NCBI RefSeq assembly: GCF_029948125.1
Contig: NZ_JASAMB010000004.1
Coordinates: 62,001 to 126,000 of the forward strand
Length of the DNA: 64,000 nucleotides
Source: Catellatospora sp. KI3
GTDB lineage: Bacteria; Actinomycetota; Actinomycetes; Mycobacteriales; Micromonosporaceae
Direction of reading: 5' to 3'
Shown here: piece after piece, positions 1 to 36,363 of the stretch
Numbering within the stretch: position 1 is the first letter of the stretch
How the letters are laid out: every line of letters starts with the position of its first letter
The notes under the pieces: generated by a model
What the model was told of the DNA's origin: nothing
The model's database searches: none
What the model saw: only the letters and a program-made list of their open reading frames with translations
Made by a program: the position numbers and the translations under genes

Positions 1-1
1 G

Positions 2-12377: not shown

Positions 12378-12394
12378 TACGCACCTCCGAGTAC

Positions 12395-13458: not shown

Positions 13459-13485
13459 CCCACCCCCACGATTCAGGAGTTCCCC

Positions 13486-15000
13486 ATGCCCCTCGCTAGA
13501 ACCCCGGCCACGGCGAGCAACGTGGCCAACACCCTGGCCCGCAGCAAGCTCGGCACCCCCGCTGTCGTGGTCTTCGTGATGGCCGCCGCCGCGCCGCTGA
13601 CGGTGACCGCCGGAGGCGCCACCAGCGGATTCGCGATCACGGGCAGTAAGGGCATCCCAGTGGCGTACCTGGCCGTCGCCGTCATCCTGGCCCTGTTCGC
13701 GGTCGGCTACGTCGCGATGTCCCGCCACGTCGTCAACGCCGGGAGCTTCTACAGCTACGTCAGCCGGGGCCTGGGCAAACCGACAGGCGTCGCAGCAGCG
13801 TTCGTCGCCGTGCTGGCGTACAACGCGATGCAGATCGGCTTGTACGGCGGCTTCGGGGCGGTACTGTCCGGCTGGCTGCACGACCGGTTCGGCATCTCGA
13901 TCGCCTGGTGGCTGTGCGCGCTCATCGGCTGGGCCATCGTGGCCGTCCTGGGCGTCCTGCGCATCGACCTCAACGGACACGTCCTGGCCGTCATGCTCGC
14001 AGCCGAGGTCGCCGTCGCGGGCCTGTTCGCGATCGTCATGATCACGCACCCGGCCGAGGGCTCGGTCAGCTTCTCCACCCTGTCCCCCAGCTACCTGATC
14101 GCCCCCGGCATCGGTGCAGCCTTGGTGACCGCGGTGACCGGCTTCGTCGGTTTCGAGGCCACCACGGTCTTCTCCGAGGAGACCCGCGACCCCCGCCGCA
14201 CGGTGGCCCGCGCGACCTACATCGCCGTCGCCATCACCGGCCTGCTCTACGGCGGATCGGCGTGGGCGCTGACGGTCGCCTCCGGGCCGGACAAGATCGT
14301 GGCCGACGCCCAGCAGTACAGCACCGAGCTGATCTTCACGCTGGTGCAGCCGCACCTCGGCCAGTTCTTCGTCGACCTGGGCCACATGCTGTTCGTGACC
14401 TCCCTGTTCGCCGCGCTGCTGAGCTTCCATCACACGGTCGGCCGATACCTGTTCAGCCTGGGCCGTGAGAAGGTCCTGCCAAGCTTCCTGGGCCAGACCA
14501 GCCGGGTCACCGGAGCACCGAAATGGGGCTCGGTCACGCAGAGCGTCCTGGCCCTGGCGGCGCTGATCGGCTACGCCATCGCGCACGCCGACCCGATCAT
14601 CCACCTGTTCTTCTGGGTCACGGTGTCGGGCGGGCTCGGCGTCCTCATCCTGATGACCCTGACCTCGGCCGCCGTGATCGGGTTCTTCGGCCGAGACCGG
14701 CTTGGCGAGAACACCTGGCGCAGAATCACCGCCCCCGCACTGGCGACCGTCGCCCTCGGCTGGATCCTCTACCTCACCATCGACCAGTTCGACGTGCTCC
14801 TCGGCGTCACACCGGATTCGCCGCTGCGCTGGCTGTTCCCCGCCTCGTTCGGCATCGCGGCTCTCGCAGGCCTGGCCTGGGCTGGCCTGCTCAAGGCGTG
14901 GAGCCCCGTGGTGTACGAGGCGATCGGCATGGGAGTCAACGCCGCCTCGGCCAACCCCTTCGCGCCGGCCGCGCCTCTTGCCGAGGCGCGGCAGTCATGA
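13486..15000 (+). CDS. APC-superfamily amino-acid permease
   Basis: The 504-residue product has about twelve hydrophobic segments and opens with the APC signature region (PAVVVFVMAAAAPLTVTAGG, AGSFYSYVSRGLGKPTG). Such proteins are proton- or cation-coupled amino-acid transporters of the plasma membrane. AGGAG precedes the ATG by 6 nt. Its stop overlaps the start of the acetyltransferase gene (ATGA), making the two a translational pair. It is the only evident transporter in the lanthipeptide run; whether it serves that pathway is not visible. Confidence 0.9.
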   Translation: MPLARTPATASNVANTLARSKLGTPAVVVFVMAAAAPLTVTAGGATSGFAITGSKGIPVAYLAVAVILALFAVGYVAMSRHVVNAGSFYSYVSRGLGKPTGVAAAFVAVLAYNAMQIGLYGGFGAVLSGWLHDRFGISIAWWLCALIGWAIVAVLGVLRIDLNGHVLAVMLAAEVAVAGLFAIVMITHPAEGSVSFSTLSPSYLIAPGIGAALVTAVTGFVGFEATTVFSEETRDPRRTVARATYIAVAITGLLYGGSAWALTVASGPDKIVADAQQYSTELIFTLVQPHLGQFFVDLGHMLFVTSLFAALLSFHHTVGRYLFSLGREKVLPSFLGQTSRVTGAPKWGSVTQSVLALAALIGYAIAHADPIIHLFFWVTVSGGLGVLILMTLTSAAVIGFFGRDRLGENTWRRITAPALATVALGWILYLTIDQFDVLLGVTPDSPLRWLFPASFGIAALAGLAWAGLLKAWSPVVYEAIGMGVNAASANPFAPAAPLAEARQS

Positions 15001-15635
15001 CCGGTACCCGCGACCTCACCATCCGCCGCGCCGAGCCCGCCGACGCGAAACGTCTGACGGAGCTGCTCACCGACGCGTTCCTGATCTCCCGGGTCGGCAA
15101 CTGGCTCATCCCGGGCATCGGCGTACGCCGCCACGTCTACCTGCGTTACTTCGACATCTTCGTCCGGCACGGCCTGGCCCACGGCCTCATGGACGTCACC
15201 GACGACCTGACCGGCGTGGCCATCTGGCTTCCACGCGACCACGACACCCCCGGCCCGCAGGACTACGACCAGCAGCTCGCCGAGGCCACCGGAACGTGGG
15301 CCGACCGGTTCCGCGCGCTGGACAAGACGTTCGACGAGCAGCACCCGCACGAGGTGTTCCACCATCACCTGCTGTTCCTGGGCGTCCTGCCCAGCGACCA
15401 GTCACGCGGTATCGGGTCGGCGCTGCTGGCCCACCACCACGCCTACCTCGACGCCGAAGGCATCCCGGCATATCTGGAAGCGAGCATGCCCCGCAACCGC
15501 GACCTGTACATGCGCAACGCCTACACGGCCCGGGACGCGTTCAACCTGCCCGATGACGGGCCGCCCCTGTGGCCGATGTGGCGCGACCCCCAGGTCACCC
15601 AGCCATCCCCGCGAGAGGACGACATCCGGTCATGA
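14997..15635 (+). CDS. GNAT-family N-acetyltransferase
   Basis: The 212-residue product starts with LTIRRAEPADAKRLTELLTD and carries the acetyl-CoA-binding segment LGVLPSDQSRGIGSALL, followed by a catalytic-end strand with YLEASMPRNRDLYMRNAY. These are the usual GNAT elements. The ATG was chosen because it overlaps the permease stop; an open frame extending upstream lies wholly inside the permease gene. The end overlaps the next gene by ATGA. The substrate is unknown. Confidence 0.88.
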   Translation: MTGTRDLTIRRAEPADAKRLTELLTDAFLISRVGNWLIPGIGVRRHVYLRYFDIFVRHGLAHGLMDVTDDLTGVAIWLPRDHDTPGPQDYDQQLAEATGTWADRFRALDKTFDEQHPHEVFHHHLLFLGVLPSDQSRGIGSALLAHHHAYLDAEGIPAYLEASMPRNRDLYMRNAYTARDAFNLPDDGPPLWPMWRDPQVTQPSPREDDIRS

Positions 15636-16564
15636 CCGACGCAGCTGAACGCCCCACCCGCCGCCATCGGCTAGGCCCTGCCGCTGTAGCCGTCGCCGTC
15701 CTGCTGGTGGCATCGGCCGGGGCCGTGGCGGTCACGCCGGGCGGACCCGCCTCACTGACGCCAACGCCGGTCAACGTCGCGCTCCCCGTGATGCCCGGAG
15801 CCGCCTCACCGACGCCGTCGGCCTGCGCCTCCGGGCCGCTGATCGACGTGGCCGACGTGCTGGTCGCCGCTCCTAGCGACGCCACCCGTGGGCGGTACTA
15901 CTACCTGCAGGTCGAGCAGTGGTCACGGAGCGACGCTGAGATCGTCGGATTCCGACGCGAAGTCTGGCTGACCGATGACGGCGGCCTGATCCGCTCGGAG
16001 CAGCGCCTTCCTGGCCAGCCGGCTGTGTCGTTCGACATGGCTCGCATCGGGGTGCCCGGAACCTTCGACGGGGTGAAGCCCCACCGCAACACCGGCGACC
16101 CCGCCGAGGTGGAGTCGTTCATCGAGCGGCACGGGCGCCCCCCGGGCAACCCGACCGAGCTGGCGAAGATCATCGACGGCGACAACGACGGCCAGCCGCT
16201 GACCGACCCGTGCCCGCCCGCGTGCGGCCTCACCATCCGGCCCATCGTGTTCTTCGACGCGGTCACCAGCCTGTACCGCAAAACGTACCTGGACCTGCCC
16301 GCACGGACAGCGCTGCTGCGGCTCGTGGCCGTCCAGCCCGGCATCACGTTCCTCGGTGAAGTCACCGACCGCGGCGGCCGTAAAGCCATCGGCGTGGCCG
16401 TCGCCGAAGGCGGCGTCCGGGTGTCCCTGCTGTTCGACCGCAACACCGGGTTCCTGCTGGCCTCCGAACGAAGCGTCCCTGACCACGGACTGGACGACTA
16501 CACCCTCTACCTGACGCTCGACCGCCGCGACAGCCAGACCCCTACCAACGGCACGGCGGCCTAG
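15632..16564 (+). CDS. Membrane-anchored hypothetical protein (CU044_5270-like)
   Basis: The 310-residue product has a short Arg-rich cytoplasmic start, one transmembrane or signal-anchor segment (AAVAVAVLLVASAGAVAVT, about residues 17-35) and an extracytoplasmic beta-rich domain (YYYLQVEQWSR, VGFRREVWLTDDGGLIRSEQ, NTGFLLASERSV). This layout resembles the CU044_5270 family of actinobacterial proteins of unknown function, an assignment made from general pattern only. It overlaps the preceding acetyltransferase gene by 4 bp. Confidence 0.6.
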   Translation: MTDAAERPTRRHRLGPAAVAVAVLLVASAGAVAVTPGGPASLTPTPVNVALPVMPGAASPTPSACASGPLIDVADVLVAAPSDATRGRYYYLQVEQWSRSDAEIVGFRREVWLTDDGGLIRSEQRLPGQPAVSFDMARIGVPGTFDGVKPHRNTGDPAEVESFIERHGRPPGNPTELAKIIDGDNDGQPLTDPCPPACGLTIRPIVFFDAVTSLYRKTYLDLPARTALLRLVAVQPGITFLGEVTDRGGRKAIGVAVAEGGVRVSLLFDRNTGFLLASERSVPDHGLDDYTLYLTLDRRDSQTPTNGTAA

Positions 16565-16620
16565 CTCAACACCCAGCCGGGCCGGTACCGCCCATCCCTG
16601 AACGTCCCTGGAGGAAGACG

Positions 16621-17199
16621 ATGACCACTCACGTCACGCCCATGACGTCGCCCTCGGCGGCACCGGCCCGACCCAAGACGCCCTTCGCCAGGCTCCTTCT
16701 CGGCCCCATATTCAAGATCATGCGTTGGCGTACGGGTACGCCAACGCAATACGACCCGCCCGCCCAGCCGCCGCTCGACCGCGATCCGGCGACCGTCGAC
16801 AGCATCGACCAGTACACGACCGGCGCACCAGTCTGGGCCTACATCGGCGGCAGCTGGCTCTGCGCTGACGTCGCCGGTATCACCAGCAGTTCCACCCTGG
16901 TGATCTACCCAGCGCCCGGTTCGGCCGACGTCATGGTCGAGACGGTGCACACCAGCCACCTCCAGCTGCGCGACCGGCCAGTACGGGAAGGCGACCGGAG
17001 CGCGTCGCCAGCCGCCTCCGAGGACCTTCCGACCGCCGACCAGGCACGGGTGACCCTCAGCCTGCACCACCGAGACGAGCTCGGACTCTGCACCGCATGC
17101 GCGGAGCGGACCCAGTTCCGGTGGGCACCCTGCCCCGACGCGAAGCAGGCCATGGCAGTGCTCGGCATCGACCCGGCAACGCAGATCGGAGCGCCGTGA
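16621..17199 (+). CDS. Hypothetical protein of the lanthipeptide run
   Basis: I do not recognise the family. The 192-residue product has a basic N-terminus (MRWRTGTP region), a central segment with GAPVWAYIGGSWLCADVAG, and a C-terminal part with paired cysteines (LGLCTACAERTQFRWAPC) that could bind a metal. A GGAGGAAG site precedes the ATG closely. The stop overlaps the start of the next gene, so the two are coupled. Confidence 0.55.
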   Translation: MTTHVTPMTSPSAAPARPKTPFARLLLGPIFKIMRWRTGTPTQYDPPAQPPLDRDPATVDSIDQYTTGAPVWAYIGGSWLCADVAGITSSSTLVIYPAPGSADVMVETVHTSHLQLRDRPVREGDRSASPAASEDLPTADQARVTLSLHHRDELGLCTACAERTQFRWAPCPDAKQAMAVLGIDPATQIGAP

Positions 17200-17483
17200 T
17201 GTCGGCCGTACTGCAGCTGCCCACAGCGGCCCGCCGCCGGATCTACCAGACGCTCGTGAGCCAGCCCGGCAGGCACTGGACCGTCCGCACGCTGACCGAG
17301 GCACTGGCCGCGCACGCCACCGTCAAGGAGACGTCCGTGCGCGACACGGTCAACTTCCTGCTGAGCCTGCGCATCGTTGCCCTGGTCCCGTACCACCGGA
17401 CCATGACCGTCAGCCTGACCAGCCCCGGCGAGCGCGCCCTGATCGTCGCTCTCCGCCGCGCCCAGTCGCAGACGGGAGTATGA
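17199..17483 (+). CDS. Small winged-helix-like protein
   Basis: The 94-residue product reads as a compact helix-turn-helix/winged-helix unit: RRRIYQTLVSQPGRHWTVRTLTEAL, then VKETSVRDTVNFLLSLRIVALV and a beta wing ending in SPGERALIVAL. It could be a local transcription regulator of the cluster. The ATG at 17199 follows the TGA of the previous gene directly, and its own stop overlaps the next start by ATGA. A frame reading in from 17097 is not needed. Confidence 0.6.
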   Translation: MSAVLQLPTAARRRIYQTLVSQPGRHWTVRTLTEALAAHATVKETSVRDTVNFLLSLRIVALVPYHRTMTVSLTSPGERALIVALRRAQSQTGV

Positions 17484-17761
17484 CGATGCGGATGGGGTGC
17501 GCCGACAGTATCGGCAAGCGGCGCGGGACACCGACGGCCCGCACGACGTACGGAAGACTGGCCCCGGTGGGTTCCCCGCTGTGGCACGCCGCCGACGCGC
17601 TGAACAGGCAGGTTCAGGCGTGGCACCGATCCGGAGGGCACGTCACGCCTTCGTTCGTCTACTGGCCCAACGGCCGCAACACCTCACCCATCCCCGCCGA
17701 CGCAGCGGCCATGAGCAAGACCCACGGCGTCCTCGCGATCACCTGGCCCGCGAGCAGCTGA
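17480..17761 (+). CDS. Small hypothetical protein
   Basis: The 93-residue product has no family I recognise. It has a basic N-terminus and a C-terminal part with SFVYWPNGRNTSPIP and GVLAITWPASS. The start overlaps the preceding stop (ATGA), which supports translation. It is the last small gene before the FxLD methyltransferase, and about 100 bp separate them. Confidence 0.5.
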   Translation: MTMRMGCADSIGKRRGTPTARTTYGRLAPVGSPLWHAADALNRQVQAWHRSGGHVTPSFVYWPNGRNTSPIPADAAAMSKTHGVLAITWPASS

Positions 17762-17862
17762 CTCTCCCCAAGCCAGCCCGCTGAGCCAGGCCCAGCACCT
17801 GACCGCCACAACCACCGGGCGACAGGACACGGCTCCGGCCGCCCACGAGCAGAAGGAATCCG

Positions 17863-19071
17863 ATGACATTGCAGGTCGATGACGCAGCCGCCTTGCGCCA
17901 GGCCATGGTGACGCAACTGCGCGCCGAAGGTCTCATCACCACCGAAGACGTCGCCGAGGCGATGAACGCCGTACCCCGGCACGACTTCGCGCCCGGCGAA
18001 CCCCTTGACCGGGTCTACCAGACCAACACGACCCTGGTCCCGAAGGTCGATGCGCAGGGTCGGCAGACCAGCGTCGTCTCGGCCTCGCACATCCAGGCCG
18101 TCCAGCTCGAACAGGCCGAGCTGCGGCCGGGCATGAGCGTGCTGGAGATCGGCTCGGGCGGCTACAACGCCGCCCTCATCGCCGAGATGGTCGGCCCGAC
18201 GGGCGCGGTCACGACGGTGGACATCGACGCCGACGTCATCGACCGCGCCCGCGCGGGCCTGCAACGGGCTGGCTACGAACAGGTCTATGTCGTGCACGCT
18301 GACGCCGAGCACGGCGTGGCCCAGCACGCGCCCTACGACCGGATCATCGTCACGGTCGGGACGTGGGACATCCCGCCCGCCTGGTTGGACCAGCTCACCC
18401 CGGACGGGCGCATCGTCGTGCCGCTGCGCTTCGCCGGGATCACCCGGCTCATCGCCTTCGACCGCACGCTGCAGCACCCGATGCTGACCGCCAGCAACTA
18501 CCGGCTCGGCTCGTTCGTGTCGATGCAGGGCGACGGCGCCGCCACCGAGCAGCTCATTGCGGTCACCCCCGACGTCGGCCTGCGCATGGACCAGAGCAGC
18601 GAGCTGGTCTTCGACGTGCTGGCGCTGCGCAAGGCGCTCAACACCAAGGGCGTGGAGGGCTGGTCAGGCACGCCGTTCGACATGCCCGACGAGCTGGAGC
18701 TGTACCTGCTGACCGCTGGGCCGCAGATGCCGATGCTGCACGCGGCGCAGGCCGCCATCGACCAAGGCGTCGTCAACCGCACAGTACGCACGGGTACCCC
18801 GGCTCTGGTGCGCGGCGACACCTTCGCCTACCGGATGAAGCGCGAGAACCCGGAGACCGTCAGCGGCTTCGAGACCGGCGTCATCGCGCACGGACCGCAG
18901 GCCGAACAGGTCGGCGCCGAGCTGCTCAACATGATCCGCGCCTGGGCGGGCCGCTACTACCGGCGCGGCGCGGCCCGCATCACCTACCACCCGAACCCCG
19001 CCGACACCAGCGCACTCGTCGGGTGGCACACGACCAAGCGACACGGCGTCCTGGCCGTCGACTGGTCCTAA
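17863..19071 (+). CDS. FxLD-system methyltransferase (PCMT-type)
   Basis: The 402-residue product has an N-terminal protein-isoaspartate O-methyltransferase domain: VPRHDFAPG, the SAM-binding loop VLEIGSGGYNAALIAE around residues 93-108, VTTVDIDADVIDRA, and YDRIIVTVGTWDIPPAWL. A family-specific C-terminal region ends in ARITYHPNPADTSALVGWHT. This two-part structure is that of methyltransferases found next to FxLD lanthipeptide precursors. Related enzymes in other RiPP pathways methylate Asp on modified peptides and can lead to isoaspartate. It lies just upstream of the precursor gene, separated by a large hairpin. The exact residue modified is not known; Asp42 or Glu49 of the precursor are candidates. 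Confidence 0.88.
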   Translation: MTLQVDDAAALRQAMVTQLRAEGLITTEDVAEAMNAVPRHDFAPGEPLDRVYQTNTTLVPKVDAQGRQTSVVSASHIQAVQLEQAELRPGMSVLEIGSGGYNAALIAEMVGPTGAVTTVDIDADVIDRARAGLQRAGYEQVYVVHADAEHGVAQHAPYDRIIVTVGTWDIPPAWLDQLTPDGRIVVPLRFAGITRLIAFDRTLQHPMLTASNYRLGSFVSMQGDGAATEQLIAVTPDVGLRMDQSSELVFDVLALRKALNTKGVEGWSGTPFDMPDELELYLLTAGPQMPMLHAAQAAIDQGVVNRTVRTGTPALVRGDTFAYRMKRENPETVSGFETGVIAHGPQAEQVGAELLNMIRAWAGRYYRRGAARITYHPNPADTSALVGWHTTKRHGVLAVDWS

Positions 19072-19078
19072 CAGACTT

Positions 19079-19117
19079 CGGCGCTCACCTGGGCGACCCA
19101 CGCCCAGGTGAGCGCCG
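19079..19117 (+). promoter_or_regulatory. 17-bp perfect hairpin before the precursor gene
   Basis: CGGCGCTCACCTGGGCG pairs exactly with the segment starting CGCCCAGGTGAGCGCCG across the 5-nt loop ACCCA. It begins 7 bp after the methyltransferase stop and ends 23 bp before the precursor ribosome-binding site. No U-tract follows, so it may be a processing or stabilising hairpin at the 5' end of precursor mRNA, or a terminator isolating the precursor promoter. Confidence 0.7.
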
Positions 19118-19152
19118 GGGAACCATATCCACCCCTCACCAAGGAGGTTGTC

Positions 19153-19320
19153 ATGACCACCCAGCTCGCCCCGGCCCCGACCGACGCCGACGGCCGCGCG
19201 CTCGACGACTTCGACCTCGACATCACGTTCATCGAGGCCGGGGGCACCGTTGAGCACATCATCAAGATGACCGAGGACAGCTGCGGCAGCACCTGCGAGT
19301 CGGCCTGCACCAGCTGCTGA
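19153..19320 (+). CDS. FxLD-family lanthipeptide precursor
   Basis: The 55-residue peptide has the diagnostic leader motif FDLD at residues 20-23 within DDFDLDITFIE, followed by a short linker and a Cys-rich C-terminus with CGSTCESACTSC. The core has four cysteines (44, 48, 52 and 55) and seven Ser/Thr residues from T40 onward, enough for several (methyl)lanthionine rings, and it ends in Cys. An AAGGAGG site lies 5 nt before the ATG. The gene sits between the FxLD methyltransferase and the LanB gene, and is bracketed by hairpins. The leader cleavage site is not certain; no protease is encoded nearby. Ring pattern and activity cannot be inferred. Confidence 0.93.
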   Translation: MTTQLAPAPTDADGRALDDFDLDITFIEAGGTVEHIIKMTEDSCGSTCESACTSC

Positions 19321-19405
19321 CCGCCGCACCAACCGATGACGGCTTCCGACTGTTAGCCCGGCCCCGGTGATCTAGCGCCGACGAGCCGCCACCGCACTCC
19401 GTCAT

Positions 19406-19449
19406 GGGATGCCCGGCCCTGGAGAACATGTTCCAGCGCCGGGCATCCC
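19406..19449 (+). terminator. Large hairpin between precursor and LanB genes
   Basis: GGGATGCCCGGC and GCCGGGCATCCC form a 12-bp perfect outer stem, and the interior can continue pairing through CTGGA/TCCAG around a GAACATGTTC palindrome. It lies 86 bp after the precursor stop and 38 bp before the LanB GTG. Partial read-through hairpins of this kind after lanA genes in other operons set precursor far above enzyme levels; that role is inferred here. Confidence 0.7.
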
Positions 19450-19487
19450 CATCCATAGTCAAACGATCATTGCCCCTGGGGGTCGGT

Positions 19488-22400
19488 GTGTACCGCAGCG
19501 TGAACAACGCACTAATGCTCCGCGCGTCAGTGCTCCACCCGGGTCACCTCGCGAGCTGGCCAGACCTCACCAGCAGCGACGGAGCCGCGACCTGGCGGCC
19601 GTGGCTCGAGGACACCCTCGCCATTCCGGGGTTCGCCGCCGCGCTGGTGCACGCCTCACCCGACCTCGCCGAGCGCGTTGCCGCGGCAGTCAAAGGCGAC
19701 CTGCCGCCCACCGCTGTCCGGCGGGTGCTGCTCGGGGTCATGCGTTACCTGCTGCGCGCCACCAGCCGCGCTACGCCCTTCGGCCTGTTCGCCGGGGTCG
19801 CTCCCGTCAGCGCAAACGGCAAAGCCACTCTCCGCTGGGGTGCCGACCACCGTCCCTTCGCCCGTCTGCAGGCGGCGTGGCTGACCGGTGTCCTGGACGG
19901 CCTGGAATCGGACCCGATGCTGCGCCCGCACCTGATCGTCCGGGCGAACAACCTGCTCGTATACCGGTCGGGCAAGGTCGTGCTGGAGTACCGTGCCGCC
20001 ACCAGCGACCCTCGCGGTGCGCCGACGCATCTGCGCGTCAAAGCCAACAACTCGATCCGTGCCGCATTGAATCTGGCGGCTGAGCCGATCCGCTGGGCAG
20101 ATCTCAGCGGCAAGCTCGCGGCCGAACACGGAGCGCCGCCCGAAGGCGCCGACCGGCTGATCGACCAGATGGTGGCGCAGCGGCTGCTGCTCACCAGCCT
20201 GCGCCCGCCGTCGATCCAGACCGATCCCCTCGCCCACATCGTCAACGAGCTGGAGACCTTGCCCACCGGCGGCTCCGACAACGTCCGGGGCCAGCTGCGT
20301 ACGCTGCGTCATCTGCGGGCACGACACGACAACGCTCCCGACCAGGCCAGCGCGGATGAGCGTCGCCGGGACCTCGGCCAGGCCGCCGCCGCGATCCGCC
20401 CCGGACCAGCTGTCGGCGTCGACCTCCGGCTGGACTGCGACCTCATCCTGCCCACGGCGGTGACGGACGAGGCATGTCGTGCCGCAGCCGCCCTGACCCG
20501 CCTGGCCCGCCCATCGTCGTGTCAGTGGCGCGACTGGCACGCCCGGTTCCTGGCCCGCTACGGCCTGCACGCCCTCGTCCCGATCCTGGACGCGGTCGAC
20601 GGGCAAGTGGGGCTCGGCTACCCGGACGGCTTCACCGGCGAGCCCACCGATCACACGACCAAGCTGCACGACCAGGACCGACGCCTGCTAGCCCTCGCGC
20701 AGCGGGCCGCGCTGCGGGGCGAACACGAGGTGGTCCTCGACGATGCCGCTCTGGAGCAGGTGGCCGGCGCAGCCCCGAGCGAGGTTTACCCGACCGCCGA
20801 ACTCACCGTCCGCGTCCACGCCGAATCCCTGCAAGCCATCGGTAGAGGCGACTTCCAGCTGTCGGTCGTACGGGCCTCCGGGCAAGCCTTCTCCACCGCG
20901 GGCCGATTCCTCGACCTGTTCGGCGAAGCGGCCCGACAGCGCATGGCGGCCGAGGCGGTCACCAGCCCCGCCGCCAGCGAAGGAGCCCTACTGGCCCAGC
21001 TGACGGCCGTGACCCGCTACACGATCAGCCTGGACGTCAACCGTGCCACACAACTGCTGCCCCACCTGATCCCGGTCGGGGAGCACCACCCACCGTCGCA
21101 GGCCACTATCGCCCTGGACGACATCGCCGTCACCGCCGACGCACACCGCCTCTACCTGATCTGCCTCTCCCGACAGCGCGCGCTGCAGGCGATCGCGGTC
21201 AACGCCGTCGAACCGGTCCGCCATGCCCACCCCCTTGCCCGGTTCCTCGCCGAAGCACCCGAGGCGCTGGCCACCGGATGTTCCCCGCTGGAATGGGGAC
21301 CAGCGGCCAAGGGCCTGCCGTTCCTACCCGCCCTGCGCTACGGCCGCACCGTCCTGAGCCCCGCCCGATGGCACCTGGCCGCAGACGAGCTACCCGACCG
21401 CCAAGCCTCCTGGCCCGCATGGGACCGCGCGCTCGGCGCCTGGCGAGATGCCATCGGCTGCCCCCGGCTGGTCGCCCTCGGCGTCGGCGACCAAACGATC
21501 AGACTCGACCTGGACGAACCCGCCCACCGCGCCCTGCTGCGCAACCACCTGACCCGCGAACCCACCGCCCTGCTACGCGCCATCACCGAAGGCAACGAGT
21601 GGATCAGCGGCCACGCCCATGAGATCGTCATCCCGCTGTTCGCCACCGCCGCCAGGCCACCAGCACCCCGCATCGGCACGACGGCCATCGACGTTCGCGA
21701 TCACGGCATCCTGCCCGGCGGCGACCACCACTACCTCAAGATCTACGCCCGGCCCGAAGAACAGGATGCCATCCTCGGCGGCCACCTGCCCCGGCTGCTG
21801 ACGCAATACCCCGAGGCGGGCCCCTGGTGGTACCTGCGGTACGCCGACCCCGAACCACACCTGCGGCTGCGCCTACGCGGCCTACCCAGCGAGGCCGTCT
21901 ACAGCTGGACACGCCAGCTGCACGCCGACGACCTGACCCGCCGAGTCCAGTGGGACACCGACTTTCCCGAGCCCGGCCGCTTCGGCGGCCCGGCCACGTA
22001 CGCCGCGACAACGGCAGTGTTCGGCGCCGAGTCCGAGGCCGCGCTCGCCGAACTCGCGGCGACCCTGAGACACCCCGCGCTGCATCGGCTGGCGCTGACC
22101 GCCGCCAGCATGGCGGACCTCGTCCACGCCGTCATCGGGGACCCGACCGAAGCGATGCGCTGGCTGATCTCCCACACCCGCACCCACCGGCTAGCGCCCC
22201 CACGAACGGTTTACGACGACGCGGTACGGCTGGCCAACCCCTACAACCACTCCGCGTTGCGCGCCCTACCCGGCGGCAACGCCATCGCCGAACGGTGGGC
22301 CGCACGCCGCCGCGCCCTGACCGCCTGGCGCGACCACCCCGGCATCAGCACCACCACCCCGGCCGACCTACTGCCCGACCTGCTGCACCTGCATCACGTC

Positions 22401-22493
22401 CGCGTCATCGGACTCGACCTGGAAAGCGAACGCGCCTGCCTGCACCTCGCCCGCGCCGCCGCACTCAGCTGGACGACAAGGAGCACCCCGTGA
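19488..22493 (+). CDS. Class I lanthipeptide dehydratase (full-length LanB)
   Basis: The 1001-residue protein has both LanB modules. The N-terminal glutamylation domain opens with YRSVNNALMLRASVL and has the hallmark RATSRATPFGLFAGVAP near residue 88. The C-terminal elimination (SpaB-C) domain begins around residue 745 with HHYLKIYARPEEQDAIL and includes WWYLRYADPEPHLRLRL. It should use glutamyl-tRNA to activate Ser/Thr of the precursor and eliminate glutamate to give dehydro residues. The GTG at 19488 follows GGGGG at a good distance; a longer frame from 19404 runs through the hairpin and is unlikely. The stop overlaps the LanC start (GTGA). Confidence 0.92.
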   Translation: MYRSVNNALMLRASVLHPGHLASWPDLTSSDGAATWRPWLEDTLAIPGFAAALVHASPDLAERVAAAVKGDLPPTAVRRVLLGVMRYLLRATSRATPFGLFAGVAPVSANGKATLRWGADHRPFARLQAAWLTGVLDGLESDPMLRPHLIVRANNLLVYRSGKVVLEYRAATSDPRGAPTHLRVKANNSIRAALNLAAEPIRWADLSGKLAAEHGAPPEGADRLIDQMVAQRLLLTSLRPPSIQTDPLAHIVNELETLPTGGSDNVRGQLRTLRHLRARHDNAPDQASADERRRDLGQAAAAIRPGPAVGVDLRLDCDLILPTAVTDEACRAAAALTRLARPSSCQWRDWHARFLARYGLHALVPILDAVDGQVGLGYPDGFTGEPTDHTTKLHDQDRRLLALAQRAALRGEHEVVLDDAALEQVAGAAPSEVYPTAELTVRVHAESLQAIGRGDFQLSVVRASGQAFSTAGRFLDLFGEAARQRMAAEAVTSPAASEGALLAQLTAVTRYTISLDVNRATQLLPHLIPVGEHHPPSQATIALDDIAVTADAHRLYLICLSRQRALQAIAVNAVEPVRHAHPLARFLAEAPEALATGCSPLEWGPAAKGLPFLPALRYGRTVLSPARWHLAADELPDRQASWPAWDRALGAWRDAIGCPRLVALGVGDQTIRLDLDEPAHRALLRNHLTREPTALLRAITEGNEWISGHAHEIVIPLFATAARPPAPRIGTTAIDVRDHGILPGGDHHYLKIYARPEEQDAILGGHLPRLLTQYPEAGPWWYLRYADPEPHLRLRLRGLPSEAVYSWTRQLHADDLTRRVQWDTDFPEPGRFGGPATYAATTAVFGAESEAALAELAATLRHPALHRLALTAASMADLVHAVIGDPTEAMRWLISHTRTHRLAPPRTVYDDAVRLANPYNHSALRALPGGNAIAERWAARRRALTAWRDHPGISTTTPADLLPDLLHLHHVRVIGLDLESERACLHLARAAALSWTTRSTP

Positions 22494-23713
22494 CCGCCCC
22501 CGCCACCACGTCCCATCGCGCGGACCCGCTCACCGCCGTCTGCGCCAGCCTCGCCGACCCCTCGATCGTCGGCCCCGCGCCAGACGGACGGACCCGACCG
22601 CAGTCATTGGCCGGAGGCGCGGTCGGCATCGCGCTGCTGCACATCGAACGCGCCATCTCCGGCCTCGGCGACGAAACCACCGCCCACACCTGGATACGCG
22701 CCGCGGTCAGCGAGCCAGTCAGCATCGGCCACAACTCCGACCCGTTCCACGGAGCCCCAGCACTGGCGTTCATGCTCCACACCGCGAGCCCGCTCGGCGG
22801 CTACCGCCGCGCCACCACCAGCCTCGACGAGGCCACCACCACCCTCACCCGGCAACGGCTGGCCGCCGCGCACGCCCGCATCCACCGCCGGGAACCGCTG
22901 ACCATGTACGAGTTCGACCTCGTGCACGGCCTCACCGGCCTCGGCCTCTACCACCTGCACGCCCACCCCGACCACCCGATCAGCGGCGACCTGGTGACCT
23001 ACCTCACCCGCCTCACCGAACCCCTCGGCGACAACACCGACCGGCCGCCGTGGTGGCTGCCGTCCGGCCTCGGCGGCGTACCCCACGACGACTTCCCCCA
23101 CGGCCACGGCAACATCGGAGCCGCCCACGGCATCAGCGCCGTCATCGCCCTACTCGCCTACGCCGTCCTGCACGGCCACGACACCCCCGCCGCCCGCGAC
23201 GCCCTCACCGCCCTGTGCGACTGGACCGACCACTACCGCCAAGACGACCCCGCCGGAACCTGGTGGCCCGGCTACGTCGCGCCCGACACCGAACTCAAAC
23301 GTCACCGGCCTTCCTGGTGCTACGGCACCCCCGGCACCGCCCGCGCCCAGCAACTCGCCGGGCAGGCCCAACGCGACCCCATCCGCCAGCAACGCGCCGA
23401 AGAGGCCATACTCACCGCACTCGCCGATGACACGCAGCGACGACGACTCCCCGAAATCGGCCTATGCCATGGCAAAGCCGGGCTGCTGCAATCCGCCTGC
23501 CGCATGGCAGCCGACAGCACCAATCCAACCCGATCAGCCCAGTTCGCCGCCCACCTTCCCCGCCTTGCCGCACAACTTGCCACCCAACTCGCCAGCGAGA
23601 CCCCGGCCGACCCGGAGCTGATGAACGGCACCGCCGGAGCCGCCCTCGCCCTACACACCGCCGCCATCGGCAACCCGGCCACCGGCTGGGACACCTTCCT
23701 CGCCCTCTCCTGA
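22490..23713 (+). CDS. Lanthipeptide cyclase (LanC)
   Basis: The 407-residue protein has the zinc ligands of LanC cyclases: Cys in SWCYGTPG around residue 278 and Cys-His in IGLCHGKAG around residue 326. Glycine-rich helix ends of the double alpha-toroid are also present (VHGLTGLGLYHL, GHGNIGAAHGISAVIALLA, NGTAGAALAL). It should catalyse Michael-type addition of cysteine thiols to dehydro residues made by LanB. The GTG start overlaps the LanB stop, which implies coupled expression. Confidence 0.92.
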   Translation: MTAPATTSHRADPLTAVCASLADPSIVGPAPDGRTRPQSLAGGAVGIALLHIERAISGLGDETTAHTWIRAAVSEPVSIGHNSDPFHGAPALAFMLHTASPLGGYRRATTSLDEATTTLTRQRLAAAHARIHRREPLTMYEFDLVHGLTGLGLYHLHAHPDHPISGDLVTYLTRLTEPLGDNTDRPPWWLPSGLGGVPHDDFPHGHGNIGAAHGISAVIALLAYAVLHGHDTPAARDALTALCDWTDHYRQDDPAGTWWPGYVAPDTELKRHRPSWCYGTPGTARAQQLAGQAQRDPIRQQRAEEAILTALADDTQRRRLPEIGLCHGKAGLLQSACRMAADSTNPTRSAQFAAHLPRLAAQLATQLASETPADPELMNGTAGAALALHTAAIGNPATGWDTFLALS

Positions 23714-23726
23714 CCGGACAAGCGCC

Positions 23727-24539
23727 ATGACCGCACTACGATGGCGGCAGACCGCCATCACCTTCGCCGACCCCGACACCGCCCAGCAGACCGCCGTCGC
23801 CCACCTCGCGCCGATCCTGGCCGACGCCGAGGCCCGCAGCCTCATCACCGCCTGGTTCTATGTACGCAAAGGCGAATGGCGGCTGCGCTACCGGCCCACA
23901 GACAGCAGCCGCAGGGCCGAAGATCACATAGGCAGCGAGCTGGAAAGGCTCGTTCGACATCGCCTCGTTCACAGCGCCGTCGCCGGCACCTACGAGCCCG
24001 AGGTCTACGCCTTCGGCGGCCCCGACGCCATGGACGTCGCCCACCGGCTCTGGCACCACGACAGCCGTCACCTCCTCACAGGCACCACCGGGCACCAACG
24101 CGAGCAGTCGATCATGCTGGTAGCGGCGATGATGCGATCGGCCGGGCTGGACTGGTACGAGCAAGGCGACGTGTGGGCGCGCGTCGCCGAACACAGAGAC
24201 CCGCCGGACCTCGCCAATGTCACGTCTCTGCAACACGCCACGCAGCGGCTCCTCACCGTCGACATCGCCAGCCTCACCGCCCCCGGAGCCACGATGGCGA
24301 CCTGTTCAGCCCTGATCGAGGCGTACGTCACCGCTGGTGACAGCCTTCGGCGACTCAACCAGGCCGGACGGCTCCGCCACCGCGGACTAAGAGACATCCT
24401 CAACCACCACGTGATCTTCGCCTGGAACCGGCGCAGCATCCCCGGACGTCATCAAGCCGCCATCGCCGCAGCCGCGAAGACCCTCATCTTCGGCCCCGGC
24501 CCCAACATCGGCCCCCTCACCACAGGCGGTGAAGCATGA
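23727..24539 (+). CDS. Stand-alone SpaB-C-like (thiopeptide-type bacteriocin) protein
   Basis: The 270-residue protein resembles the LanB elimination domain as a separate polypeptide: WFYVRKGEWRLRYRP at the substrate-contact strand, GTYEPEVYAFGGPDAMDVAHRLWHHDS in two adjacent pieces, and a helical C-terminus. Such proteins are annotated as thiopeptide-type bacteriocin biosynthesis proteins. Since the LanB here already has its own elimination domain, this copy is additional, as is usual in FxLD clusters, and may act on a glutamylated or methylated intermediate. It starts 13 bp after LanC and overlaps the next gene by 4 bp. Confidence 0.85.
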   Translation: MTALRWRQTAITFADPDTAQQTAVAHLAPILADAEARSLITAWFYVRKGEWRLRYRPTDSSRRAEDHIGSELERLVRHRLVHSAVAGTYEPEVYAFGGPDAMDVAHRLWHHDSRHLLTGTTGHQREQSIMLVAAMMRSAGLDWYEQGDVWARVAEHRDPPDLANVTSLQHATQRLLTVDIASLTAPGATMATCSALIEAYVTAGDSLRRLNQAGRLRHRGLRDILNHHVIFAWNRRSIPGRHQAAIAAAAKTLIFGPGPNIGPLTTGGEA

Positions 24540-25648
24540 ACCCAGAAGTAGCCCGCCGCTTCCCACTGATCGCCCGACCTCGGCCCGCCTGCACGCCCCT
24601 GGTCCAACGCGTCGCCGACCTCGAACACCGTGCAGCCCTCGCCCAAGAACACCACAACGCAGCCGCCGCAACCGCCGTCTTCAACCTCGCCGCCCTCCTC
24701 GCGTCCGACTGCGGCCTGCCCGACCTAGCCCGCACCTGGTGCCACCGACTCGCCGCCATCACGCTGGCCCACAGCACCGAACCCCGCCATGCCCTCGAAC
24801 CCATCGTCAACCTCGCCCGCCTGCACATCCGCGCAGGCGACGGCCCCACCGCCTGGACCCTGCTGGAAACCCTCTACCAGGCAATCACCACCCGCACCGA
24901 CACGATGATCGACGGCATCATGATCCCGGCCGCTCACCTCACCGAAACACCCACCAGCCACACCAACGCCCGTACCTGGCTATGGAGCGTCCTCCTCGGC
25001 ACCGGCGCGCACGCGCTCGCCACCGCCAGCCGCTGGGACGAAGCAAGCCAACGCCTCGCCCAACACAACGGAGTCGGCGAGCGCATGCTCGACGGCCGAC
25101 AGGTCACCGTCATCGCCCACGCCGTCGCGGGTCGCCACAAGCAGGCGCACACGCTGCTGTGCGCCACCCAACCGGGCGAGACGTGGGAGAACGCAGTCAC
25201 TGCCAGCCTGCATCTGCATGTGCCCGGTCGCGATCCAGCGGAAGCGACCACCATCGCGTTGACGACCTATCACTCGCTCGGGCCAATCGAACCGACGCTC
25301 TTCCGGACCCGCCTGGGTCTCATTCTCGTGGACGCCCTCCACGCCAACCATCCGGAACGCGATCGGTTCATCACGGATCTTGTCGCCCTGGCGGCCGAGG
25401 ACGGCTACGCCGCCCGCGATTTCCTCGAACACCCGGAGTGCGCTGACGCCACTAACAACCAGCAACGCGCTGAACTCGCCGACCTGCTGTCACGATGCGG
25501 CCTCGGCCAAGGCGCCCTACCGGCCGCCGTTCTCGCCGCCATCGAACAAGCCCTCAACGTCGCGGAAGCAACCATCACGCAATCGACCTGTGACCCTGCT
25601 CAATCGGCGACCGCAACCACGGCGAACAGCGGAGGACGCCGATCATGA
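24536..25648 (+). CDS. TPR-like hypothetical protein of the FxLD cluster
   Basis: The 370-residue product is built of helix pairs resembling tetratricopeptide repeats (AAATAVFNLAALLASDCG, EPIVNLARLHIRAGDGPTAW, RWDEASQRLAQHNGVGER). It has no catalytic motif I can identify. It is the last gene of the co-directional run, coupled to the preceding gene by ATGA, and is followed at once by a terminator-like hairpin. A scaffold or regulatory role in peptide maturation is possible but unsupported by motifs. Confidence 0.65.
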   Translation: MNPEVARRFPLIARPRPACTPLVQRVADLEHRAALAQEHHNAAAATAVFNLAALLASDCGLPDLARTWCHRLAAITLAHSTEPRHALEPIVNLARLHIRAGDGPTAWTLLETLYQAITTRTDTMIDGIMIPAAHLTETPTSHTNARTWLWSVLLGTGAHALATASRWDEASQRLAQHNGVGERMLDGRQVTVIAHAVAGRHKQAHTLLCATQPGETWENAVTASLHLHVPGRDPAEATTIALTTYHSLGPIEPTLFRTRLGLILVDALHANHPERDRFITDLVALAAEDGYAARDFLEHPECADATNNQQRAELADLLSRCGLGQGALPAAVLAAIEQALNVAEATITQSTCDPAQSATATTANSGGRRS

Positions 25649-25704: not shown

Positions 25705-26062
25705 CATTGTGACTCAGCACGCTTGTTAGCGTTCCTTATGGCCGCTAGCTCGATGAGCCATCCGAGCTGAGCCGCCATGGCGGGGTGTTAGCGCCCTTAT
25801 CGGCAAGCAGTAGCTGTCGGCCGGGAAGTTGTCGCTCGATCCGGCGACCCGGCAAATGCTGTGAGCGTAAGCGCCAGCCGGGTGGCCCGTAGCAGCCAGC
25901 TCGACGGCAGAGCCGAATCGGCTGCGGCCACAATCTGCATTTGCCCGCTCGCGAGCCTGCTCAATGCCGACGCCCGACACGGCCCAGGGTTCAGCAGGGA
26001 TTGTCGGCGGAATGTCGGAGTCGGTGTCAGAGACTGTCCGACATCAGGTCACCGTGTACTGG
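25705..26062. other. Gap between the lanthipeptide run and CRISPR array 1
   Basis: No supported gene. A leftward 84-codon frame at 25726-25980 has no family resemblance. Near the array an inverted repeat (ATGTCGGA / TCCGACAT) spans about 26012-26044 and could terminate the outward transcript of array 1, which should end here. Confidence 0.4.
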
Positions 26063-29000
26063 GGATCACCCCCCGCGTGCGCGGGGAGCAGACCTGGTAG
26101 ATCCGGCCGACGAGGTCCGGGTCGGGATCACCCCCGCGTGCGCGGGGAGCAGGGTTCTTTCGGCGTCGCGGCGCTGCTCTGGCTAGGATCACCCCCGCGT
26201 GCGCGGGGAGCAGTCGTTGGTCCCGCTGCCCACGGTCAACCCGGTCGGATCACCCCCGCGTGCGCGGGGAGCAGGTTCCATGTCCGATTTGTATATGGCA
26301 CACCCTGGGATCACCCCCGCGTGCGCGGGGAGACAGGGGTTATCCCGCAGCAGCTCGCGGAAGAACGCCGGATCACCCCCGCGTGCGCGGGGAGCAGGTC
26401 GCCTGGTACCACACCCGCAAGGTAATGATCGGATCACCCCCGCGTGCGCGGGGAGCAGGCCTCTCCTCTCTGGGGGTGCCCGGCGCGGTGGGGATCACCC
26501 CCGCGTGCGCGGGGAGCAGGCACTGGATGCCGAGTGCGAGGCGGGGGTGTGCGGATCACCCCCGCGTGCGCGGGGAGCAGCGGCCGCGCCGGCAGCACGG
26601 GCCGTCGATCCGGGGATCACCCCCGCGTGCGCGGGGAGCAGGCCTGCGCCAGGGACACGCCAGCACTGTCGAACGGATCACCCCCGCGTGCGCGGGGAGC
26701 AGGTCCCCGGCCCGCCGCGCGATGGCGGCGTCGCGGGATCACCCCCGCGTGCGCGGGGAGCAGGGCCACGGGACGGCGCCCGTGGGCTTGCGGGTCGGAT
26801 CACCCCCGCGTGCGCGGGGAGCAGACCCGTGCCGAGCAGGACCGGGCGCTGACCGACGGATCACCCCCGCGTGCGCGGGGAGCAGACCTGTCCGCCGCTG
26901 TACGCGACCCGGCGCGACGGATCACCCCCGCGTGCGCGGGGAGCAGCAGTCGGGTGTTCTTCTCGCTATAGGGGTGGCCGGGATCACCCCCGCGTGCGCG
27001 GGGAGCAGCGAGGTCGTCGCCCCACATGCCGATGCGTACGGGGATCACCCCCGCGTGCGCGGGGAGCAGTGCAGGCGGGTGAGCTTGACGAGGTGCTGGA
27101 GGGGATCACCCCCGCGTGCGCGGGGAGCAGCACCACGTCGGGCCGCCTGCACAGCCGACACCGGGATCACCCCCGCGTGCGCGGGGAGCAGCCGTGGTGG
27201 CGCTGCTGGTCGTGGTGACCACGGGGATCACCCCCGCGTGCGCGGGGAGCAGGCCGATGCCTTCGAGATCCTGTGGCCGGGCAAGGGATCACCCCCGCGT
27301 GCGCGGTGAGCAGCGGCAGCCACGGCGGCAGCACGCGAGTCACCAGGGATCACCCCGCGTGCGCGGGGAGCAGGGCACCAGCCAGGACATCATCCTGTCC
27401 GTGTCGGGATCACCCCCGCGTGCGCGGGGAGCAGCTGGCGATCGGTGACCGTCTGCCGCGTATGCCGGGATCACCCCCGCGTGCGCGGGGAGCAGTGGTT
27501 GGTGATCTCGTTGAACTTCTCGCGGTGGGGATCACCCCCGCGTGCGCGGGGAGCAGCCTGTCAGGCCTTCGATGGTCCCGGCCAGGCCGGGATCACCCCG
27601 CGTGCGCGGGGAGCAGATGGGGACCTCCTCTGTTGAGTTTTCAAACGCCGGATCACCCCCGCGTGCGCGGGGAGCAGCCGGCGCCACCGGCGGCAGCTTC
27701 GAGTTCATCAGGATCACCCCCGCGTGCGCGGGGAGCAGTAGCGGGTGAGCGCGACGGAGGTCTGTCCGACCGGATCACCCCCGCGTGCGCGGGGAGCAGG
27801 CTGGCAGCTCGTTGCGCTGGTCGCGATCATCGGGATCACCCCCGCGTGCGCGGGGAGCAGTCACGCCGTCCGAGCGTAGCCGCAGGTAGGCCGGATCACC
27901 CCCGCGTGCGCGGGGAGCAGCCACGGCTGTGACCGGATCGGTGGTGCCGGCCGGGATCACCCCCGCGTGCGCGGGGAGCAGTGCAGCCGCTGCGCGATCC
28001 TCGCTGGCAAGCACGGATCACCCCCGCGTGCGCGGGGAGCAGGGGCGGGACGGGGGCGGTCATGCCACACCGCCGGGATCACCCCCGCGTGCGCGGGGAG
28101 CAGGCTGGTGCAGGTCGGTGATGGCCATGCCACTCCGGATCACCCCCGCGTGCGCGGGGAGCAGCGAGTAGTCGAGCCACTGGCCGCGGCCGAGCCGGGA
28201 TCACCCCCGCGTGCGCGGGGAGCAGCACGTCGTCGCAACCACCTGGGCGATCGACCGCGGATCACCCCCGCGTGCGCGGGGAGCAGTTGGTGACGTTGAC
28301 CGGCCCGCCCGGCTGCGCGGGATCACCCCCGCGTGCGCGGGGAGCAGAAGCTCTGAATCCACGACCACGGCGCGTCCTCCGGATCACCCCCGCGTGCGCG
28401 AGGAGCAGCGGATAGACGCCGCTGATGGTCTTCCAGAGCGTGGATCACCCCCGCGTGCGCGGGGAGCAGCCGTTCTTGGCCTGGGCGTCGACGAGCTCCT
28501 TGGGATCACCCCCGCGTGCGCGGGGAGCAGCGTGCCGCGCATCCGGGCCGAGTCCGCGCCGCGGGATCACCCCCGCGTGCGCGGGGAGCAGGCCAGTCGT
28601 GAATGAGTGAAATTCGGGATCTCAGGATCACCCCCGCGTGCGCGGGGAGCAGTCGGCGCCATGAGTTGGGCGAGCAGGTCGGAGCGGATCACCCCCGCGT
28701 GCGCGGGGAGCAGTTGTCGGGTGCGCCGCAAGTTCCGTTTTACCTGGGATCACCCCCGCGTGCGCGGGGAGCAGTCCAGCGGCAACTCCTCCTCGCCCTC
28801 CTCGTCGGGATCACCCCCGCGTGCGCGGGGAGCAGGACGGCGCCGTCATGGTCCACATGGTGGCCCGGGGATCACCCCCGCGTGCGCGGGGAGCAGTCCG
28901 TTCGGCTACCAGGAAGTCGCGCAGCGCGGGGATCACCCCCGCGTGCGCGGGGAGCAGTCGATCCAGTCGGCGGCGGGGTGGCCGAACAGGGGATCACCCC

Positions 29001-30116
29001 CGCGTGCGCGGGGAGCAGCGGCCGGCCGCCTCCGGCGCGTCCGGGGGCGAGGGATCACCCCCGCGTGCGCGGGGAGCAGCGGCCGGCCGCCTCCGGCGCG
29101 TCCGGGGGCGAGGGATCACCCCCGCGTGCGCGGGGAGCAGCTGAGGGGCACGCTGGCCAGCATGTCCGCGCAGGGATCACCCCCGCGTGCGCGGGGAGCA
29201 GTCGTCGAAGAACCCGAGCGTGATCGCCGCGTCGGGATCACCCCCGCGTGCGCGGGGAGCAGGGCGTCGGCGGGATTGGTCCACGGACATGCGCCGGATC
29301 ACCCCCGCGTGCGCGGGGAGCAGCGCGGTCAGCCGTTCAAGCAGGCCGACTGGCAGGGATCACCCCCGCGTGCGCGGGGAGCAGGCCGGGCTGCTGCCGG
29401 AGCACCGGCGGGCCGAGGGATCACCCCCGCGTGCGCGGGGAGCAGTTCTTCGCGTCCATCTTCGTACTCCCTGTCTCGGGATCACCCCCGCGTGCGCGGG
29501 GAGCAGATCGTCCTCGGCGGTGCCGCCGCCGTCTGGCTGGGATCACCCCCGCGTGCGCGGGGAGCAGGCGTCGGTTGCCTGCTCGGTCGCGACCTGGAAC
29601 GGATCACCCCCGCGTGCGCGGGGAGCAGTCCAGGCGTCGACGCGCCTTCTCGATCTGCGCCGGATCACCCCCGCGTGCGCGGGGAGCAGTACTACAACCA
29701 GCCAGCCGCCATGACGCTCGACGGATCACCCCCGCGTGCGCGGGGAGCAGGGGCGTACGTCTGGTCGCGGCACGACGACCAGCGGATCACCCCCGCGTGC
29801 GCGGGGAGCAGGGTGGCCACCTGTGCATCAGTTGCGCCTCCGACGGATCACCCCCGCGTGCGCGGGGAGCAGAGTCGGACAGGTCACAGCCAGCAGGTTG
29901 GCGCCGGATCACCCCCGCGTGCGCGGGGAGCAGTCCAGGACCCGGACTCGGCTCGCCGCGGGCGAGGGATCACCCCCGCGTGCGCGGGGAGCAGGGCCCC
30001 GCCTTCCTCCGGGAGGGCGGGGCCTTCGGATCACCCCCGCGTGCGCGGGGAGCAGACGCCCGGTGCACAGATTGGCAATGCGGTCATGGGATCACCCCCG
30101 CGTGCGCGGGGAGCAG
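26063..30116 (-). CRISPR. CRISPR array 1, type I-E, 67 repeats
   Basis: I counted 67 copies of a 28-nt repeat with period 61, giving 66 spacers, nearly all 33 nt. Read on the minus strand, the repeat starts CTGCT, contains the hairpin CCCCGCGCACGCGGGG and ends GTGATCC, which would be the crRNA 5' handle. Transcription should therefore run leftward from the leader near 30117. The leader-distal copy (26063) has an extra base, and others (26308, 27286, 27347, 27590, 28381) carry single changes. Two adjacent spacers (29019-29051 and 29080-29112) are identical. Many long open frames across the array are artefacts of the 61-bp period. Confidence 0.98.
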
Positions 30117-31503: not shown

Positions 31504-31510
31504 CGCGCGC

Positions 31511-32176: not shown

Positions 32177-32179
32177 CGC

Positions 32180-36328: not shown

Positions 36329-36363
36329 GACACCACCTCTCTCGGAGTTCGATAGTCGGGCGG

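Follow-up and report, generated by a model that had tools for sequence, protein, structure and literature searches.

An FxLD-type class I lanthipeptide cluster with a separate, predicted syn-glutamyl lyase and a TPR-fold companion protein in Catellatospora sp. KI3

Which product a lanthipeptide pathway would make when it keeps a second glutamate-eliminating protein beside a full dehydratase is the question raised by six genes of Catellatospora sp. KI3. They lie on the forward strand at positions 17863-25648 of a 64,000-nucleotide stretch of contig NZ_JASAMB010000004.1 (positions 62,001 to 126,000), which as a whole is called the window here. We think it likely that these genes constitute a class I lanthipeptide cluster of the same kind as coi and olv ("lanthimiditide") and represent the sub-type whose syn-glutamyl lyase is unfused; the chemistry of the cluster is proposed throughout by analogy. 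The cluster is an intact member of a widespread and partly characterised family. New are the pairing of the lyase with a TPR-fold protein, a caution against the coi ring pattern, a lost methyltransferase and a corrected start of the LanB gene.

In the pathway that we propose, the FDLD box of the leader would dock the precursor onto LanB, which would transfer glutamate from glutamyl-tRNA onto serines and threonines of the core and remove it by anti-elimination, giving dehydroalanine (Dha) and (Z)-dehydrobutyrine ((Z)-Dhb). The second lyase would release glutamate by syn-elimination at one chosen threonine and thereby yield (E)-Dhb. Addition of the cysteine thiols by LanC would close the rings, one of them as D-allo-L-methyllanthionine. 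The methyltransferase would then esterify Asp42 within the first ring (Thr40-Cys44), leading through an aspartimide to mainly isoaspartate. The TPR protein would serve as partner of the syn-lyase, most likely as a scaffold that presents the glutamylated precursor.

The cluster and its second glutamyl lyase

The initial annotation had described a complete FxLD-type class I lanthipeptide cluster, and hmmscan together with the gene coordinates bears out the six genes in the order given there. All gaps between them are below 170 bases; two gene pairs, LanB/LanC and second lyase/TPR protein, each have an overlap of 4 bases. The first gene (17863-19071) encodes a methyltransferase of the LanSA type, a PIMT-like peptide-aspartate O-methyltransferase of 402 aa, which scores 476.6 bits against TIGR04364 ("methyltransferase, FxLD system", cut-off 320) and 145.7 bits against PF01135. 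It is followed by the precursor gene lanA (19153-19320, with AAGGAGG upstream), whose 55-aa product reaches 51.8 bits against TIGR04363 ("FxLD family lanthipeptide", cut-off 30). The FxLD naming therefore holds, both proteins being above NCBI curated cut-offs. The third gene (19488-22493) encodes a full class I dehydratase with a glutamylation domain and an anti-type elimination domain in a single frame (PF04738, 620.6 bits; PF14028, 125.4 bits). The LanC cyclase (22490-23713) matches PF05147 with 125.5 bits and contains the stretches WCYGTPG and CHGKAG, which we take to be its zinc-site motifs. A separate LanB with both domains and a LanC, with all three Pfam families above cut-off, place the cluster in class I. 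The stand-alone elimination-domain protein (23727-24539) could be confirmed as well (PF14028, 82.4 bits; TIGR03891, 157.8 bits); it is encoded apart from the methyltransferase. The last gene (24536-25648) encodes the TPR-fold protein of 370 aa. The genome contains a single LanB match and a single FxLD methyltransferase above the cut-off. The idea of a wholly new system was dropped, since all genes except the last pass curated models and the arrangement has been published.

The longest LanB frame begins at 19404, and the Pfam match starts only at its residue 75. The conserved LanB of relatives starts with (V/M)YR, and in two of the relatives, L105 and L108, an in-frame stop precedes it at a short distance. 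Judged from this alignment and from the position of the Pfam match, the real start is the GTG at 19488, which gives a protein of 1001 aa. LanB has residues of the Arg826 and the His961 type.

For comparison we used two samples. Sample 1 consists of 70 regions around 78 other places above the methyltransferase cut-off and 22 further loci, thus 92 loci; many of its methyltransferases have no LanB nearby, and the precursor table comprises 52 loci and the window. Precursors were located by a leader-motif script, and those that it missed are uncounted. Residue counts exclude lyase domains below 80 bits and LanB C-terminal domains below 30 bits, scored against the domains of the window itself. Sample 2 was built around 40 of the TPR-homologue hits, of which 61 had been listed; these 40 come from 35 genomes and exclude the hit of the window itself, G104 (already covered as L036), G392 (at a contig edge) and the 18 weakest hits. 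The DNA of one locus of sample 2, L126, already occurs in sample 1 as L110, so that 39 of the 40 are new; the two records L116 and L117, which come from a single species, were each counted. Precursors were detected in 31 of the 40 loci.

The assignment of the second lyase rests on an alignment of the two domains of the window with domains from the 92 loci, 51 of them from second lyases and 58 from the C-terminal part of LanB proteins. At the Tyr position of the anti-lyases, all 51 second lyases have Lys (Lys48 in the window), whereas the LanB proteins have Tyr (39), His (11) or other residues (8). The position of NisB Arg826 is Ala in 48, Thr in two and Val in one of the second lyases (Ala95 in the window), compared to Arg in 58 of 58 LanB domains. 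The catalytic-type His is kept in 56 of the 58 LanB domains; in the corresponding columns the second lyase of the window has Ala and Trp, and 23 of the 51 second lyases have His in the first of them, in C-terminal parts that align poorly. The lyases of sample 2 agree with this pattern, with Lys in all 28 that could be parsed among the 40 and Ala (34), Thr (4) or Val (2) at the Arg826 position. Lys for Tyr, a hydrophobic residue for Arg826 and lack of the catalytic His of the anti-lyases are published differences between syn- and anti-glutamyl lyases (PMC9486935). The syn class yields (E)-Dhb and D-allo-L-methyllanthionine (PMC9890492), and the K46A variant of CoiSA accumulates glutamylated intermediates, so that the Lys matters (PMC9011353). 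Elimination of glutamate has been shown for the coi relative (PMC9486935). The second elimination-domain protein is thus predicted to belong to the syn-glutamyl lyases. A full LanB with an additional elimination-domain protein had been noted before (PMC7268733), and clusters in which a full LanB is joined by a stand-alone lyase already form a published category (PMC9486935); hence the cluster is not a new kind.

The nearest characterised system is coi from Streptomyces coelicolor A3(2). It shares the full LanB with an anti-type domain, LanC, the PIMT-like methyltransferase, an extra syn-lyase (PMC9486935), a further protein of unknown function (CoiH) and a comparable core, its ring positions being Thr43-Cys47 and Thr50-Cys55. 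However, the syn-lyase of coi is fused to the methyltransferase, and the core in the window has Ser in place of Thr57 and an extra C-terminal Cys. With olv from Streptomyces olivaceus the cluster has in common LanB, LanC and a LanSA methyltransferase that makes isoaspartate in a methyllanthionine ring (PMC9486935, PMC13001092). The SapT (spt) system also possesses an (E)-Dhb-making lyase that has Lys in place of Tyr and lacks the catalytic Arg and His (PMC9011353, PMC9890492), but there the lyase is one half of a split LanB, whereas the second lyase of the window supplements a full one.

A methyltransferase above the TIGR04364 cut-off occurs in 50 of 151 genomes (the own genome and 150 relatives). 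Among the close relatives are Micromonospora inaquosa (methyltransferase 90% identical), M. matsumotoense, Actinoplanes, Jiangella and others. A similar precursor is encoded on ten plasmids of Streptomyces and Embleya, and the two that we inspected share the gene order and are annotated as fxlM and "FxLD family lanthipeptide". The Streptomyces plasmid clusters, for example NZ_CP108098.1, have fxlM, precursor, dehydratase, LanC, a "thiopeptide-type" protein and a hypothetical protein in this same order, but their precursor differs, the match being 55.6% identical over residues 20-55. Among the class I precursors of Actinobacteria, those from PIMT clusters with a conserved core Asp have been described as the most abundant (PMC7268733). 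That FxLD products are barely characterised, as the annotation put it, is correct in part: ring patterns and stereochemistry have been published for olv and coi, the latter by expression in E. coli, but as of 2022 neither had a known native product, cleavage site or function, according to the available part of PMC9486935. The cluster offers a compact and intact example of the sub-type with a separate syn-lyase, and as a separate protein this lyase can be omitted, restored or combined with the TPR protein.

The core peptide, its aspartate and its predicted rings

The precursor has the FDLD motif at residues 20-23, Cys at residues 44, 48, 52 and 55, and seven Ser/Thr from residue 40 onward, all as first annotated. 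Its core, TEDSCGSTCESACTSC, is identical in M. matsumotoense (L105). A T-x-D-x-C core with this Asp is known from PIMT-associated lanthipeptides (PMC7268733, PMC10787088, PMC13001092), and we found it in 53 of the 54 precursors located beside a LanB, counted with a pattern that itself requires T/S-x-D, the exception being L099. PIMT homologues of lanthipeptide clusters methylate a single core Asp within a formed ring, and the resulting aspartimide opens mostly to isoaspartate (PMC13001092, PMC10787088). A C-terminal extension of more than 100 aa has been used to recognise PIMT homologues of this kind (PMC10787088). The methyltransferase of the window has such an extension, PF01135 matching residues 13-202 and TIGR04364 residues 8-401 of 402.

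Compared with T-x-D-G-C, the core of the window retains T, D and C but has Ser in place of Gly (TEDSC). Among the distinct cores of sample 1, Gly follows the Asp in six of six from clusters without a second lyase and in six of six from clusters with a fused lyase; the 34 from stand-alone-lyase clusters have Asn (19), Gly (13), Ser (1) or Gln (1). Over both samples the 21 fused cores have Gly (14), Asn (6) or Thr (1) and the 46 stand-alone cores Gly (24), Asn (20), Ser (1) or Gln (1), so that the contrast between fused and stand-alone cores is blurred once sample 2 is added. Gly, Thr, Asn and Asp have been reported at this position (PMC13001092).

The rings of CoiA1 join Thr43 to Cys47, Thr50 to Cys55 and Cys51 to (E)-Dhb57 (PMC9486935). 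Mapped by the T-x-D-x-C register, they correspond here to Thr40-Cys44, Thr47-Cys52 and Cys48 with residue 54, which is Ser in the window. The first two rings may reasonably be supposed to form as in coi; for the third, and for the site of the syn-lyase, coi is no safe guide.

The same difference appears between the two groups of clusters. In coi numbering, Thr is found at position 57 in nine of ten distinct cores from clusters with a methyltransferase-fused lyase and in seven of 31 from stand-alone-lyase clusters, and a Cys at position 58 or 59 in one of ten and 28 of 31, respectively. These counts combine both samples for cores of the same spacing and omit those of other spacing (11 of 21 fused, 15 of 46 stand-alone); the Fisher tests (p 0.0003 and 6e-6) do not take relatedness into account. 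In addition, six of 22 stand-alone cores of sample 1 have no Thr beyond the third conserved Cys. Since stand-alone-lyase cores mostly lack the Thr used by the coi lyase and have an extra C-terminal Cys, it would be unsafe to project the ring pattern of coi onto them. The comparison thus cautions against imposing this pattern on the larger group of stand-alone-lyase clusters.

From these data a second reading of the lyase follows, in which it acts on a Ser, or on Thr40, Thr47 or Thr53, and not at the coi position, so that rings and stereochemistry would be unlike those of coi and olv. The residue counts at position 57, the extra Cys and the cores without a late Thr speak for it, but the neglect of relatedness and the omission of cores of other spacing hold us back, and we regard it as a serious possibility to which we do not quite incline. 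A further step, which we put forward tentatively and consider rather doubtful, would be to see in the clusters with stand-alone syn-lyase a distinct sub-type, in which a TPR protein is the lyase's own partner, (E)-Dhb arises at another Thr than in coi (Thr40, Thr47 or Thr53 in the window), the extra Cys closes a further ring, and isoaspartate is formed from Asp-Ser or Asp-Asn. If this is true, ring topology and the set of methyllanthionine isomers would be such as have not yet been seen in a lanthipeptide.

Several properties of the precursor weigh against the assignment to the coi/olv kind. An Asp-Ser step, as at Asp42, is expected to be slower at aspartimide formation than Asp-Gly. At the position of CoiA1 Thr57 the core has Ser54, with Thr53 adjacent and the extra Cys55, and the T57S variant of coi was processed poorly (PMC9486935). 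The ratio of non-synonymous to synonymous substitution rates (dN/dS) of the precursor gene (0.84, 1.74 and 0.31 over 51-55 codons) is uninformative.

A separate observation concerns the fused-lyase clusters L040, L043, L044, L083, L093, L101 and L164, which have a short core type, TDDGCDTVKGSDC. It holds just two Cys, so that the coi ring pattern does not apply to it.

The remnant of an upstream methyltransferase

Directly upstream of the cluster (17588-17758, forward strand) a second FxLD-type methyltransferase survives as its final 57 codons, recognised by their similarity to methyltransferases that stand whole just upstream in relatives (81% identity to L050, 70% to L102 and 52% to L105). 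In the window they are joined to 36 codons from the start of a neighbouring gene, forming a frame of 93 aa (17480-17761). In the alignment with L050, bases 1-6007 of the latter correspond to 11589-17596 of the window and bases 7756-15748 to 17588-25577. About 1.75 kb of L050 sequence is absent from the window, with a 9-base overlap at the junction, and L050 has two copies of this 9-base repeat at the ends of the missing part. The missing DNA comprises most of the second methyltransferase and most of a preceding gene, which its motifs suggest to be a 3'-5' exonuclease. From this alignment, the second methyltransferase has been lost here by deletion at the 9-base repeat; the idea of a still functional copy was dropped, 57 codons being left.

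The loss could mean that the rest of the cluster is also on its way out and makes no product. The deletion with its remnant fits this, as does the dN/dS of the remnant (1.07 against L050, 0.59 against L102 and 0.78 against L105, over 54-57 codons), to which in the 54-codon comparisons with L102 and L105 the constraint on the relatives' own genes contributes. However, the other genes are open, and dN/dS values of 0.22-0.50 against three relatives (0.26-0.28 for the methyltransferase) and of 0.25-0.36 against L050 point to purifying selection on methyltransferase, LanB, LanC, lyase and TPR protein. Moreover, the DNA fetched for five relatives with the same architecture (L103, L104, L107, L109 and L110) contains no methyltransferase upstream, and hence the second copy may be dispensable. 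We therefore think decay of the cluster unlikely.

The description of the cluster as complete holds for the six genes, which are intact, but not beyond them: the upstream methyltransferase is deleted, and neither a peptidase nor a peptide exporter was found among the scanned neighbours, some neighbouring frames being outside the scan. Of the transporters, an amino-acid permease (13486-15000) lies closest to the cluster.

Beside these results we note that L050, L092, L102 and L105 have two tandem methyltransferases ahead of a precursor with a single core Asp. The 6 kb upstream of the cluster (11589-17596) are collinear with and 90.6% identical to L050, which comes from a genome of another genus in the family.

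The lyase fold, the TPR protein and the neighbourhood

An AlphaFold model of the second lyase (mean predicted local distance difference test, pLDDT, 94.0) has MibB, MadB and NisB as nearest Foldseek matches, then aza-cyclases and pyridine synthases. That the protein is a [4+2] aza-cyclase forming a pyridine or piperidine from dehydroalanines, as in thiopeptides and pyritides, was raised as a possibility by Walker et al. 2020 (PMC7268733) and would agree with the pyridine synthases and aza-cyclase variants among the Foldseek matches and with TsrE as best solved-structure sequence match of the lyase profile (27.6 bits, just over the lyase-bearing MibB with 26.8 bits), but it is very improbable given that the top six Foldseek matches are dehydratase chains, that all aligned second lyases retain the catalytic Lys of syn-lyases and that the coi relative eliminates glutamate (PMC9486935).

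The syn-lyase, as we continue to read it, is accompanied by the TPR-fold protein. The latter has no family match of its own at E 0.01, and TPR_7 is matched weakly (E up to 0.1) by ten of 33 aligned homologues. Its AlphaFold model is an all-helical TPR-like solenoid (pLDDT 94.3), and its Foldseek matches are mostly TPR proteins, none of them at E 0.001 or below. Asn50, Asp58, Asn92, Arg95, Arg99, Arg188, Gln189 and Asp289 are invariant polar residues in the 33 sequences.

A profile search for the TPR protein in the 52 loci with precursor and LanB was positive in 24 of the 37 whose syn-lyase stands alone, in seven of the eight with a fused one and in none of the seven without a syn-lyase. Approached from the other side, a TPR homologue is present in 45 of 394 genomes drawn from the class, and the surroundings in sample 2 contain syn-lyase, methyltransferase and LanC in 40 of 40 loci and LanB in 39, the remaining one being at a contig end. 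In all 40 the TPR homologue lies on the strand of the syn-lyase and within 1.5 kb of it, in 13 of them closer than 150 bases; in 23 of the 27 more distant cases lyase and methyltransferase share one frame, so that the methyltransferase domain intervenes. In Lentzea albidocapillata syn-lyase and TPR protein form one open frame (L116, 14775-17093; L117, 14781-17093). These associations are most simply explained if the two proteins are physical partners, with the TPR protein as scaffold of the lyase.

Some points speak against this pairing. The TPR protein went undetected in 13 of the 37 stand-alone-lyase loci, about a third, and it could equally serve the methyltransferase. For the reconstitution of coi dehydration and cyclisation in E. 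coli, the available part of PMC9486935 lists CoiB, CoiSA(ED) and CoiC only. The protein is probably of the CoiH type, as judged from its position in fused clusters. Judged by title, searches of an open-licence library gave no paper on it, and PMC9486935 mentions CoiH once. The tight association with the lyase suggests a first testable role for this protein of unknown function.

Two hairpins lie between the genes on the forward strand, in stretches chosen by eye ahead of folding: one of 20 bp between methyltransferase and precursor (19076-19120; -44.2 kcal/mol, z -9.05) and one of 18 bp between precursor and LanB (19406-19449; -37 kcal/mol, z -5.59). Counting the window, a hairpin recurs in all nine folded regions of the first kind and in all ten of the second, where the relatives' LanA-LanB hairpin is the best 60-base stretch per region, taken without shuffles. 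Pairs changed on both sides number three in seven sequences for the 20-bp and four in eight sequences for the 18-bp hairpin, the sequences being those left of ten after poorly aligned ones and ones without a resolved intergenic region had been dropped beforehand. The covariation score was reached by 16 of 500 shuffles (20-bp) and two of 500 (18-bp), the number of double-sided changes by 40 and 182 of 500; with so many shuffles matching it, the latter measure alone is weak. The hairpins could separate the precursor transcript from the enzyme genes. A known RNA family was rejected for both, as the scan of the window against Rfam gave no match at gathering thresholds.

About 400 bases past the cluster begins the first of two long arrays of clustered regularly interspaced short palindromic repeats (CRISPR), at 26050-30060 and 46180-49680, with repeats of about 28 bases in steps of 61 bases and 58 and 50 copies in register. 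Between the arrays, within 30541-39210, stands a set of cas genes like those of type I-E (Cas1, a Cas6-type CRISPR_assoc protein, Cas5, a CT1975-type Cas7, Cse2 and Cas3). A UvrD-like helicase is encoded beside Cas3 (39207-41315), and a Ser/Thr protein kinase on the opposite strand (41487-42998).

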